NCBI RefSeq assembly: GCF_000156175.1
Contig: NZ_GG692710.1
Span: 257,600 to 321,599, forward strand
DNA length: 64,000 nt
Source of the DNA: Collinsella intestinalis DSM 13280
GTDB lineage: Bacteria; Actinomycetota; Coriobacteriia; Coriobacteriales; Coriobacteriaceae
Reading direction: 5' to 3'
Below are positions 24,907 to 63,700 of this stretch, one piece after another. Position 1 is the first letter of the stretch, and each line of letters starts with the position of its first letter. The notes beneath the pieces are model-generated. The model saw nothing but the letters and a program-made list of their open reading frames with translations, was not told the DNA's origin and did not search any database. Both the position numbers and the translations under genes were made by a program.

Positions 24907-24931
24907 GTTCACCGAATGCCGGTATATTGGG

Positions 24932-25015
24932 GCAAAACGTTCCCCAAAACGTACACTTTGAAATCCGAATCCTGGGGTTTTGCAAAATAAGTGTACGTTT
25001 TGGGGAACGTTTTGC
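24932..25015. repeat. Group I long palindrome, copy A (27-bp perfect arms, conserved loop)
   Basis: Bases 24932-24958 and 24989-25015 are exact reverse complements over 27 bp (arm starts GCAAAACGTTCCCC). The 30-base spacer contains TCCGAATCCTGGGG followed by TTTTGCAAAATAA. The stretch 24964-24990 matches 54603-54629 at 24 of 27 positions, although the arms of the two copies are unrelated. There is no U-tract. It lies between the DUF523 gene and the ileS leader. Confidence 0.85.
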
Positions 25016-25107
25016 GCTGATTTAGCGTGGCGTTGCGGCGCAGGGCCACATGATCGTTTGCTCGACGTGGTCGGGCTGTGAGTTTCGCCCTCTGGGCGCT
25101 CCGCCCG

Positions 25108-48824: not shown

Positions 48825-49681
48825 AGGTCCTGCTCGTCCCCAATTACTACAAGCAAGAGGCCGTTGAGAGCGGCCTCACCCTCGAGCTGTGGCTCACGCG
48901 ACAGGGCTTTGAGGTCGAATGGGCCGCCGACCAGCGCTCCGGTATCGAGTCGATCCCCGACCTCGCGGGCTGTGGCCTTGTCATCTCCCTCGGCGGCGAC
49001 GGCACGCTCCTGCGCGCCGCGCGCACCGTGGGGTATCGCGAGATTCCAATCCTCGGCCTGTCCTATGGTCACCTCGGGTTTCTCACCGCGGCGAGCCCTC
49101 AGGACAAGAACATCCTCTCGGTTGTGTCCGACGCGCTTGCCGGCGAGCTGCATGTGAGCCGCCGCGCTACGCTCGCCTGCGAGATCATGAGCGTGAATGA
49201 ACGCGGTGAGGAAGAGGTCTGCACCGGCTTTGCCCTGAACGACCTCGCGCTCGCCCGCGGCCCGCTCTCCGATATGGTCGAGTTCGACATCACCGTTTCC
49301 GGCCATCACATCGATCGCCTGCGCGGGGACGGCGTGGTGGTTTCCACGGCCACCGGCTCCACGGGGTACGCCCTGTCCGCCGGCGGCCCCATCGTGAGCC
49401 CGGAGTACACCGGCATGGTCTGCGTGCCCATCGCGCCCCACACCATCCAGGCCCGCGCCTTCCTCACGTCCCCGTCCGACGTCGTGGAGATATCCGTGTC
49501 CAAAGATCGCCCGTCGGCCCCCACCATTGCCCTCGACGGCCAGTTCATCACGCCGTCCGGCGAGGTCGAGCGCGCCGTCGTGCGTCGCGGCGATGCCGAC
49601 ATCCTGCTGCTCGATTACGGCCCGGAGAGCTTTTACACGTCCGTGAGCCGCGTCTTTTACGGGGTGCGCAATGATCGATGA
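48821..49681 (+). CDS. nadK: NAD kinase
   Basis: NadK makes NADP from NAD. The 286-residue product has the GGDGT motif in LVISLGGDGTLLRAAR (about 53-68), GLSYGHLGFLTA, the NDLALARG segment, and the NAD-binding VVSTATGSTGYALSAGGPIV. The ATG overlaps the tlyA stop, and the 3' end overlaps recN by 11 bases. tlyA-nadK-recN is a typical cluster. Confidence 0.95.
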   Translation: MKVLLVPNYYKQEAVESGLTLELWLTRQGFEVEWAADQRSGIESIPDLAGCGLVISLGGDGTLLRAARTVGYREIPILGLSYGHLGFLTAASPQDKNILSVVSDALAGELHVSRRATLACEIMSVNERGEEEVCTGFALNDLALARGPLSDMVEFDITVSGHHIDRLRGDGVVVSTATGSTGYALSAGGPIVSPEYTGMVCVPIAPHTIQARAFLTSPSDVVEISVSKDRPSAPTIALDGQFITPSGEVERAVVRRGDADILLLDYGPESFYTSVSRVFYGVRNDR

Positions 49682-51305
49682 GATCCATGTCGAGAACATC
49701 GCGCTGATTAAATGCGCCGACCTGGTGCCCGGTCCCGGTCTCACGGTCCTCACCGGCGAGACGGGCGCGGGCAAGACCGCCCTGCTTTCCGCCCTCAAGC
49801 TGCTGATGGGCGAGCGTGCGGATTCCGCGACGGTTCGCGAGGGGAGCGACGGTGCGCTTGTCGAGGGACGTCTGTTCAGCGGCGCTCGCGACGAGGAGGG
49901 CTTCGTTATCCAGCGTCGCCTAGGTTCCGACGGCCGTTCCCGCGTGCGTGTGGACGGCTCGCTTGCGAGCGTGCGCGAACTGTCCGAGCGCGTGAGCCCC
50001 CTGATTGACCTGTGCGGCCAGCACGAGCACCAGCGACTGCTCGACCCCGCCTCCCATGTTGGGATGGTCGATGCCTGGGCCGGCGCGGGCGTTGCCGAGG
50101 CACTCGCCGCGTATCGCGACGCACTTGCGCGTGCGAACGAGGCCGCGCGCGAGCTCGAGCGCGTCGAGCAGGCGAGCCGCACGCAGGGCAGCCGTCTTGA
50201 GGAGGCGCGGTTTGCCCTCGAGCGCATTTCCGATGTCGATCCCAAGCCCGGCGAGCTCGAGGAGCTTGAGGAGCGCCTGCCCCGCGTCGAGCACGCGGAG
50301 AGCCTCGCATGCTGCGCCAACGATGCCGCTGAGGCCCTGACCTGCGAGGGTGGCGCGCTCGATGCACTCAATACCGCCATCGCGGAGCTGTCCCGCATGG
50401 CCCGCGTCGACGTCAAGCTCTCCGAGTTTGCCGACCAGCTTTCCGGCGCTGCCATCACGGTCGAAGATGCGGCTGCGGAGCTGCGCAGATACCGCGATTC
50501 GGTCGATTTTGACCCGGCGGAGCTGGCCGCCGCACAGGAGCGCTACTCGGCGTTCAAGGGCTTGCTGCGCCAGTGGGGTCCGCATATGGAGGACGTCTTT
50601 GCCCGTCGCGATGAGGCGGCCGAGCTGCTCTCGCTCGTCGATGACGCCGAGGCCCGCGTGAGGCGCGCCTGCGACGCCCGCGATGCCGCCGAGGCCGAGC
50701 TTGCCGAAGCCGCACGGACGCTGACCAAACGCAGGAACGCTGCGGCGCCGCGTTTTTGCCGCGAGGTGGGCAAGCAGATGGCGCGTCTCGAGATGGGCCG
50801 CGCTGAGCTCGTGTGGGACAGCAAGCCGCTCGCACGTGAGCGCTGGACCGTCCAGGGCCCAACCGCTTGTGAGCTGCTCTACCGCAGCGGTGCCGGCATG
50901 ACGCCTCGTCCGCTGCGCCGCATCGCCAGCGGTGGCGAGCTTTCGCGCGTCATGCTCGCTTCCAAGGTGGTCCTCGGCGAGGCGGACGCCGTCGACACGC
51001 TCGTGTTCGACGAGGTCGACGCCGGCGTCGGCGGCTCCACGGCCCGCTCCCTCGCGCAGGTGCTCGCAGACCTGGCGCGCACCCATCAGGTGATCGTGGT
51101 CACGCATCTGGCCCAGGTGGCCGTGCAGGGCTCCGTCCACTACGTGGTGCGCCGCGACGATGCGGCCGACATCCCCGAGACGAGCCTCATCCGCGTCGAG
51201 GGCACCGACCGCATTGCCGAGATCGCCCGCCTCCTCTCCGGAGACGCCACCGAAGAGTCCCTCGCCCACGCCAAGCAACTCCTCGCCGAAGCAGGAAGGC
51301 TCTAA
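49671..51305 (+). CDS. recN: DNA repair protein RecN
   Basis: RecN is an SMC-like ATPase in double-strand break repair. The 544-residue product has Walker A TGETGAGKTALLSALKLLMG (about 28-47), a DLCGQHEHQRLLDPASH segment, long central coiled coils, and the C-terminal ABC signature IASGGELSRVMLASKVVL with Walker B LVFDEVDAGVGGSTARSLAQ (about 443-462). The length is normal. The start is ATG 49671 inside the end of nadK. Palindromic elements follow. Confidence 0.95.
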   Translation: MIDEIHVENIALIKCADLVPGPGLTVLTGETGAGKTALLSALKLLMGERADSATVREGSDGALVEGRLFSGARDEEGFVIQRRLGSDGRSRVRVDGSLASVRELSERVSPLIDLCGQHEHQRLLDPASHVGMVDAWAGAGVAEALAAYRDALARANEAARELERVEQASRTQGSRLEEARFALERISDVDPKPGELEELEERLPRVEHAESLACCANDAAEALTCEGGALDALNTAIAELSRMARVDVKLSEFADQLSGAAITVEDAAAELRRYRDSVDFDPAELAAAQERYSAFKGLLRQWGPHMEDVFARRDEAAELLSLVDDAEARVRRACDARDAAEAELAEAARTLTKRRNAAAPRFCREVGKQMARLEMGRAELVWDSKPLARERWTVQGPTACELLYRSGAGMTPRPLRRIASGGELSRVMLASKVVLGEADAVDTLVFDEVDAGVGGSTARSLAQVLADLARTHQVIVVTHLAQVAVQGSVHYVVRRDDAADIPETSLIRVEGTDRIAEIARLLSGDATEESLAHAKQLLAEAGRL

Positions 51306-51311
51306 CTGTCC

Positions 51312-51428
51312 GCCCAGCGGGAACGTATAAGATTCGGCGTTCGGTCAGTCCTGACTCGCGACGAAGGCCCCACTGGGGCCTTCTGCTCGTGCGGAATCTA
51401 CGCTGAACCTTATACGTTCCCGCTGGGC
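51312..51428 (+). repeat. Group II nested palindrome, copy 1
   Basis: The outer arms 51312-51339 and 51401-51428 are reverse complements at 26 of 28 positions, the outer 20 bp perfectly (GCCCAGCGGGAACGTATAAG). Inside, a perfect 9-bp hairpin GAAGGCCCC-ACT-GGGGCCTTC (51363-51383) sits in a core running from TTCGGTCAGTCCTGAC to CGTGCGGAATCTACG. That core recurs in two other copies, while the outer arms do not. It starts seven bases after the recN stop and may also end that transcript, although no U-tract is present. Confidence 0.85.
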
Positions 51429-51500
51429 TGCGTTGAGCTTATGCTCACTGGCGGTTTCCAGGCGGAATCTCGTTGTGAATGCGCGACCGTCGAGCCTTGG

Positions 51501-51611
51501 GGCTGGGTCGGGTGCGTGTTTGCCGTAGATTCCGCACGCAAAGAAGAGCCCAGTGGGCTCTTCGTCTTGCGCAGGACCTGACCGAGCGGCAAACACGCAC
51601 CCGACTCAGCC
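51501..51611 (-). repeat. Group II nested palindrome, copy 2 (inverted)
   Basis: The outer arms 51501-51525 and 51587-51611 match as reverse complements at 24 of 25 bp (left arm begins GGCTGGGTCGGGTGCG). The inner 9-bp hairpin is GAAGAGCCC-AGT-GGGCTCTTC (51543-51563). Read on the minus strand its core follows copy 1: CTCGGTCAGGTCCTG, then the hairpin, then CGTGCGGAATCTA. The hairpin shows compensatory changes relative to copy 1 (GGCCCC/GGGGCC against AGCCC/GGGCT). It ends 22 bases before the lepA start. Confidence 0.85.
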
Positions 51612-51633
51612 AATTTCAGGTAAGATGGTCAGC

Positions 51634-53438
<1,805 letters not shown>

Positions 53439-53442
<4 letters not shown>

Positions 53443-56453: not shown

Positions 56454-56556
56454 TCAATTGGGGTCAGGTACAAATTGATCCGTCGCGTGCTCGCGCGTGT
56501 AAAAGGGGACGGGTGCAAATTGCACATTGTGCGGTTTGCACCCGCCCCATTTACAC
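56454..56556. repeat. Group III GGGGAC palindrome cluster after the dCMP deaminase gene
   Basis: A short unit TCAATTGGGGTCAGGTAC then AAATTGATCCGTC (56454-56484; TCAATT pairs with AATTGA) is followed by a long palindrome. 56497-56519 (GTGTAAAAGGGGACGGGTGC...) pairs with 56535-56556 over about 21 bp with one mismatch and one bulge. The short unit nearly repeats a stretch inside phoH (61398-61427). No U-tract follows. It occupies most of the 212-base gap before the first dnaJ gene. Confidence 0.8.
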
Positions 56557-62409: not shown

Positions 62410-62497
62410 GGTGTGCAATTGGGGACGGGTGCGTTTTACGCATCCGGCACACCGCGTTGCAAGATGTGTAAAACGCACCAATCCCCAATTGCACACC
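62410..62497. repeat. Group III long palindrome between dgkA and era
   Basis: Bases 62410-62439 and 62468-62497 are reverse complements at 28 of 30 positions (left arm begins GGTGTGCAATTGGGGACGGG). The 28-base loop begins GCATCCGGCACACC. Only TTTAG follows, so termination of the dgkA transcript is possible but weakly supported. It uses the same GGGGACGGGTGC and GTTTTAC words as the elements at 56.5 and 55.5 kb. Confidence 0.85.
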
Positions 62498-63552: not shown

Positions 63553-63574
63553 CACCCATCCCCGGGCGCCTCGA

Positions 63575-63663
63575 CCTATACATCGCCTGCTCGGACAGTC
63601 CTGCTCGCTCGAAGGCCCCACCGGGGCCTTCGGCTCGTGCGGAACTCGCATTCGACGTATAGG
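63575..63663 (+). repeat. Group II nested palindrome, copy 3
   Basis: The outer arms CCTATACATCG (63575-63585) and CGACGTATAGG (63653-63663) pair at 10 of 11 positions. The inner hairpin GAAGGCCCC-ACC-GGGGCCTTC (63611-63631) and flanks CTCGGACAGTCCTGCTCG and CTCGTGCGGAAC match the core of copies 1 and 2. It occupies most of the 148-base gap between era and recO. Confidence 0.8.
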
Positions 63664-63700
63664 CCGTGACGCGGGAACGGTCCATCTGGTTGCGAGCGGC

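Follow-up and report, generated by a model that had tools for sequence, protein, structure and literature searches.

The recN-lepA intergenic region

The window analysed here is a stretch of 64,000 nucleotides from Collinsella intestinalis DSM 13280 (contig NZ_GG692710.1). Within it, recN (49671..51305, + strand; TIGR00634 above cut-off) is followed by lepA, which encodes EF4 (51634..53442, + strand; TIGR01393 above cut-off), and the recN stop at 51305 and the lepA start at 51634 enclose a gap of 328 bp. This gap harbors two nested palindromes. Copy A (51312-51428, + strand) begins 6 nt past the recN stop with a left outer arm of 29 nt (51312..51340), which is 93% paired with the right outer arm (51400..51428), its reverse complement. 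Between the arms lies a conserved core (51341..51399) that recurs in the same genome as well as across Coriobacteriia and is composed of TCGGTCAGTCCTG (51341-51353), a 10-bp inner hairpin (51363-51383) and CGTGCGGAATC (51388-51398). After a spacer of 72 bp (51429..51500, no strand), copy B follows on the - strand (51501-51611). Its outer arm of 25 nt (51501..51525) is 96% paired with the other outer arm (51587..51611), which reaches to within 22 nt of the lepA start codon. The core of copy B (51526..51586) contains the inner hairpin at 51543-51563. Both copies share one plan, a 25–29 bp outer stem, an asymmetric conserved middle and a 10-bp inner hairpin, which is flanked by TCGGTCAG(G)TCCTG on one side and CGTGCGGAATC on the other.

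This arrangement largely agrees with the original prediction, made from the letters of the window. The two palindromes in opposite orientation and both conserved motifs were found as described, and the compensated change of the inner hairpin (GGCCCC/GGGGCC in one copy, AGCCC/GGGCT in the other) was confirmed. Only the statement that the gap consists almost wholly of palindromes was too strong, since the copies cover 228 of the 328 bp (70%) and are separated by the spacer. A third copy had also been announced and is located at about 63566-63672 (+ strand, core match 63596-63644). Its arms are weaker, with 19 of 25 positions paired; those of its orthologue in the related genome G028 (L208) are better paired.

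Among relatives the gap varies between one and three copies, as had been predicted for copy number at a fixed locus. Two are present here, three in G028, one each in G035 and G034, and one, which is decaying, in G014. The additional copy of G028 (L049) is decayed and lies in the part of the gap that corresponds to the A-B spacer. Copy B and its counterpart in G035 (L051) have an identical core, while 5 of the 25 arm pairs differ, all of them compensated.

Loss of the family is under way in G014, a reduced genome, in which orthologous sites show cores in decay, arms without pairing, and deletions (the recN-lepA gap, L050, as well as L201, L210, L213 and L216). In the C. aerofaciens-like genomes (L067, L069, L071, L073, L076), lepA is preceded by what appears to be rpsT and a canonical terminator rather than by recN.

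On the lepA side, the end of copy B is followed after 9 nt by a -10-like TAAGAT (51621-51626). This motif stops 7 nt short of the lepA ATG (window 51621-51636), and given this closeness the lepA transcript may be leaderless. Copy B abuts the predicted promoter.

Distribution of the family

About 11 copies were found by BLAST in the own genome of 1.81 Mb, and three closed C. aerofaciens-like genomes gave 28, 24 and 21 matches. The elements have a median length of 121 bp and occupy extragenic sites at gene borders. The core was detected in 60 of 100 relatives and in 11 of 36 genera. When named genomes were scanned with an exact pattern, almost all of the matches listed belonged to Coriobacteriia, the genera among them being Collinsella, Enorma, Adlercreutzia, Gordonibacter, Ellagibacter, Slackia, Paraeggerthella, Enteroscipio and Tractidigestivibacter. 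Among 246 genomes from the phylum, those outside the order yielded marginal matches alone (E about 5e-4, two genomes), and phages and IMG/VR contigs yielded no core. As far as searched, the family is confined to Coriobacteriia.

No Rfam 15 family was matched at the gathering threshold, the best sub-threshold hit reaching 12.6 bits (E=0.55). A published description of the family was not found in a literature search, most subscription journals being outside its reach.

Two database records carry doubtful labels. A MAG labelled Corynebacterium contains the element (L104, NZ_JAUNLS010000012.1); the contig probably belongs to Coriobacteriia and is either mislabelled or mixed. Furthermore, the C. 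aerofaciens record NZ_OY725717.1 (899,693 bp) is listed as a plasmid; it is of the same size as contig G006:C6, which carries lepA and a gene of the site termed site 2 below, and is probably a piece of the chromosome.

Position relative to genes

The elements have a fixed polarity toward the genes. With the core as reference for orientation, 39 sites have the left end of the element no more than 30 nt past the stop codon of a long ORF, and only 6 have the right end there (p=5e-7); the distances from stop codon to element are mostly 3–20 nt. In elements preceding a gene, the left end again tends toward the coding sequence. Copies on the - strand by gene starts are represented by copy B at lepA, where the element is directly upstream of the -10-like TAAGAT. 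Divergent gene pairs are rare surroundings, with 5 of 126 copies that a crude ORF caller could classify; all gene calls around the elements were made by such simple ORF rules.

Pairing and sequence of the outer arms

The arms are about 20–45 bp long and those of different copies are unrelated in sequence. That outer arms differ between copies and are nevertheless self-complementary, as noted originally for copies A and B, holds in many further copies. Pairing was tested directly on the copies rather than through a covariance model. Self-complementary flanks above threshold were present at 251 of 266 cores located by sequence alone, and at none of 266 random intervals. A set of 110 copies, the arms of which are dissimilar to one another, has 92.5% of its positions paired, compared to 32% with shuffled partners; the former value is inflated, since the arms were located by maximizing complementarity, while the count of 251 has a matched control. 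Nearly all arm positions of these 110 copies use all four pair types. The median arm is 31.5 bp long with 97% identity in C. aerofaciens-type copies, 26 bp with 93% in other Coriobacteriaceae and 24.5 bp with 90% in Eggerthellaceae and allies.

With many additional copies present and their pairing retained, neither of the two outcomes that would have spoken against the original observation occurred, and the earlier suggestion that pairing is maintained is supported. What takes on another meaning is the compensation, which is unlike stepwise RNA covariation in that whole arm blocks are exchanged with no GU intermediates and cores are inverted. On the transcribed strand, the arm mismatches comprise 39 GU and 46 AC (p=0.5), hence no GU preference is visible; an earlier wobble count that ignored the transcription strand was dominated by junction positions and was set aside. 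Block changes without a wobble preference are not what stepwise RNA covariation predicts.

Changes at orthologous sites

Nearly all copies of three related genomes are located at orthologous sites, and 44 sites with orthologous copies revealed a bimodal distribution of arm comparisons. In the first class the arms are near-identical and differ mostly by one-sided point changes. In the second class they are 25–75% identical and display 5–14 compensated changes with usually 0–3 one-sided ones; here the flanks are still about 90–95% identical and some cores are unchanged. The pair L089/L114 has an arm identity of 0.39 with 14 compensated and no one-sided changes around an identical core, and similarly massive, compensated changes were found in the sets L027/L267 and L165/L232/L282. 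Orthologous copies are related by descent, therefore these counts are not independent events. Across the compared genomes, inheritance is shown to be mostly vertical at fixed intergenic sites.

Three sites, picked because copies are missing in one genome and therefore biased toward variability, were followed further. At site 1, compared in about 22 genomes, a mid-arm block of 6–8 bp occurs in several matched left/right alleles, and five chimeras have unmatched left and right halves. The persistence of these mismatched chimeras indicates that pairing is not strictly required there. At site 2, one genome is chimeric with the switch point inside the apical loop. Upstream of valS, three allele classes lie between nearly identical flanks. 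Two of these are nested palindromes with unrelated arms and the third, present in 6 of 22 genomes, is a core-less hairpin, in which the arms of the first class surround a 4-nt loop.

At site 1 in G024 and at site 2 in G013, one-armed states had suggested an inverted target duplication as origin of the arms. This was dropped at site 1, where about 20 further genomes are nearly all filled and the one-armed state of G024 is for this reason a deletion. With respect to the marks of a MITE or transposon derivative, a target-site duplication and a clean empty site, core-less alleles were seen at one site and the absences at another look like deletions. In two site 2 copies (L320, L312), an intrinsic terminator lies upstream, and its T-tract and 3' stem are paired with the outer arm (GCCCTTTTGCT / AGCAAAAGGGC).

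Conservation, inversion and possible spread of the core

The conserved, asymmetric core comprises about 50–60 bp. Conservation of its middle extends across families, whereas the inner stem, which keeps its pairing despite sequence variation, and the apical loop are lineage-specific. Here, 66 of 72 C. aerofaciens-like copies have a ACATTAAGTG-type loop, while all 10 of 10 copies in the own genome have CCAC[TCG]GG. The inner stem of 9–10 bp strongly covaries; an RNAalifold run on a MAFFT alignment of the cores was only partly usable because columns were shifted.

Between homologous arms, the core is inverted at 3 of 6 sites comparable between the own genome and G035 (L003/L199, L004/L203 and L015/L217), a count over few sites, and the inverted core at the L015 site is also found in G028. 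Of the apparent flips among C. aerofaciens-like genomes (19 pairs), most, including G024_1998968 vs. G043_731657, turned out to be head-to-head double copies and were left out.

Core types are also swapped between orthologous sites, and inner arm stretches of 17–25 nt are common to non-orthologous sites. In G035, one element has been duplicated together with part of its left flank. The lineage-wide identity of the loop looks like concerted evolution through copying between sites.

Template switching as a possible mechanism

We interpret the family as REP-like border hairpins with a conserved core, the arms of which would be kept for structure only and be re-symmetrised by replication template switching, a reading to which we give an even chance. 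Here, the arms would be a single freely drifting sequence plus its mirror image. Recombination between strains, which is presumed to be frequent, or mutation would first produce half-and-half stems. When a replication fork crosses such a palindrome, hairpin-templated DNA synthesis could restore complementarity and would occasionally flip the core, too. Selection for a hairpin at that position probably helps. For the host, we propose more cautiously that the elements act as REP-like border hairpins, of which the core would be the recognized part. They might stabilize mRNAs at the 3' side, insulate transcription or be bound by a conserved host protein.

Replication template switching is predicted to leave multiple simultaneous compensatory changes and loop inversions as footprints (PMC8794818). 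Both types are present: compensated changes come several at a time, with no wobble intermediates, and at three sites the loop is inverted between unchanged stems. As predicted footprints, they support template switching. Such palindromes may be tolerated because an SbcD-type hairpin nuclease is not detected in the genus. In E. coli, SbcCD and RecA counteract the rearrangement of interrupted palindromes, down to a length of 85 bp (PMC3315005). SbcD was undetected in all 45 of 45 genus genomes, with the control search being positive in 13 of 14 well-known genomes. Since the genus g6 of the same family has SbcD and still 1–4 copies per genome, the absence of SbcD may favor the elements and is not required. 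Several further genera of the order have SbcD as well.

Several observations count against this reading. Template switching re-symmetrises stems and does not by itself make new blocks of 6–25 bp. The near-identical orthologues with mostly one-sided differences indicate that conversion is not fast. Furthermore, the fixed polarity points to a strand-specific function or biased insertion, for which template switching alone does not account, and the uniformity of the core loop within a lineage (66/72 vs. 10/10) looks like the result of copying between sites.

The hairpins of RNA genes for which these footprints were described likewise have simultaneous compensatory changes and inverted loops (PMC8794818). 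However, their stems are 2–10 bp with loops of 4–8 nt, whereas the present repeat family has arms of 20–45 bp and inverts a core of about 60 bp. In chloroplast DNA, segments of 5–50 bp flip between inverted repeats of 11–24 bp (Kim and Lee 2005, cited in PMC12928735). The flipping of a segment between inverted repeats is the same; as far as that secondary citation describes them, the chloroplast inversions differ in having no repeat family, no conserved core and no hypervariable arms.

REPs measure 20–40 bp, their stems are family-specific, and they bear a tag, either GTAG or CGTC (PMC3733652). The elements resemble the REPs and BIMEs of the RAYT-associated GTAG and CGTC superfamilies, since these too are short, many-copy extragenic palindromes near coding regions that occur singly or as pairs of opposite orientation. 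In contrast, the arms of 20–45 bp are free in sequence here, the core is internal and tags are not conserved: of 220 copies, 19 have GTAG and 13 have CGTC at the junction of core and arm, counting either strand. The Y1 transposase (PF01797) had no match in the own genome (G000) or in G034, both carriers of the element, and is present in 39 of 45 genus genomes. The family is a REP in the loose sense of a many-copy extragenic palindrome, and it fails on the tag and on the RAYT. Mobilization by a RAYT was dropped in view of the missing Y1 match in the own genome.

Alternative explanations

The elements might instead be structured RNAs, i.e., a 3' UTR stabilizer, a processing signal or a small RNA, the arms of which covary because the transcript must fold. 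The polarity with the + strand 3–20 nt downstream of a stop codon, the strongly covarying inner stem of 9–10 bp and the scarcity between divergent genes would fit to this. Yet the arms have no wobble preference, both are replaced in blocks without intermediates, and cores invert; the copy at site 2 sits behind a canonical terminator with a T-tract, and an Rfam match is missing. We consider an RNA element unlikely.

Equally unlikely is a mobile element, in which the core with about 8 bp of inner arm would be a non-autonomous unit that enters hairpin loops or copies itself between sites via a putative enzyme, the outer arms being pre-existing hairpins or inverted target duplications. The core-less alleles at the valS site, the lineage-wide loop, the inner arm stretches common to non-orthologous sites and the duplication in G035 speak for such a unit. 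Nevertheless, orthologous sites account for almost all copies in three genomes, the losses at site 1 are deletions with nearly all other genomes filled, neither the own genome nor G034 gave a match to a RAYT-type Y1 transposase, viral contigs and phages contain no copies, and the G035 duplicate takes in flanking DNA.

It is rather improbable that the core actively imposes palindromy through a dedicated enzyme, which would fold and nick the core, prime mirror-image rewriting of one flank and move cores between stems. If true, the inherited feature would be a shape and not a sequence.

Very improbable are integron-like recombination sites, i.e., folded single-stranded hairpins that are recognized by structure like attC. 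The length range, the poor sequence conservation, the conserved unpaired bases and the place right behind a gene are shared with attC (PMC2727003), as would be the structure-based recognition of a folded hairpin, a likeness in shape only. Against this, R boxes of the attC type (R'/R'') at both feet occur in 0 of 220 copies, the conserved part is central and not at the foot, and the copies are flanked by housekeeping genes of conserved synteny instead of forming part of cassette arrays.

Bidirectional intrinsic terminators with oversized stems would explain the placement after stop codons and between convergent genes, but T-rich stretches right after the arm (20 of 138 vs. 44 of 414 control windows) have little or no enrichment; without a clear T-tract enrichment this explanation was dropped as highly improbable. 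Guide hairpins of a CRISPR- or siRNA-like type, suggested by variable arms of captured foreign or self sequence around a conserved core, have a negligible probability and were dropped, because the tested arms gave no credible phage match and arms of the own genome match their own copies alone.

Implications

Compensated changes are usually taken as proof of RNA structure. The elements represent a natural and replicated case in which DNA arms of up to 45 bp are replaced wholesale in matched pairs, and such matched turnover of DNA arms means that covariation alone would mislead RNA-motif finders. With dozens of independent sites per genome, in hosts in which SbcD is not detected, they offer a system to measure template switching, core inversion and the tolerance of hairpins. 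Furthermore, the family points to a candidate core-reading factor conserved across Coriobacteriia.

Additional palindromes in the window

Other long palindromes without the core are present in the window at 62410-62497, 56502-56552 and 24920-25027, with arms of 25–40 bp that are 84–88% complementary. Two of these contain GGGGACGGGTGC and one GTTTTGGGGAACG, and they apparently represent one or more separate palindrome families.
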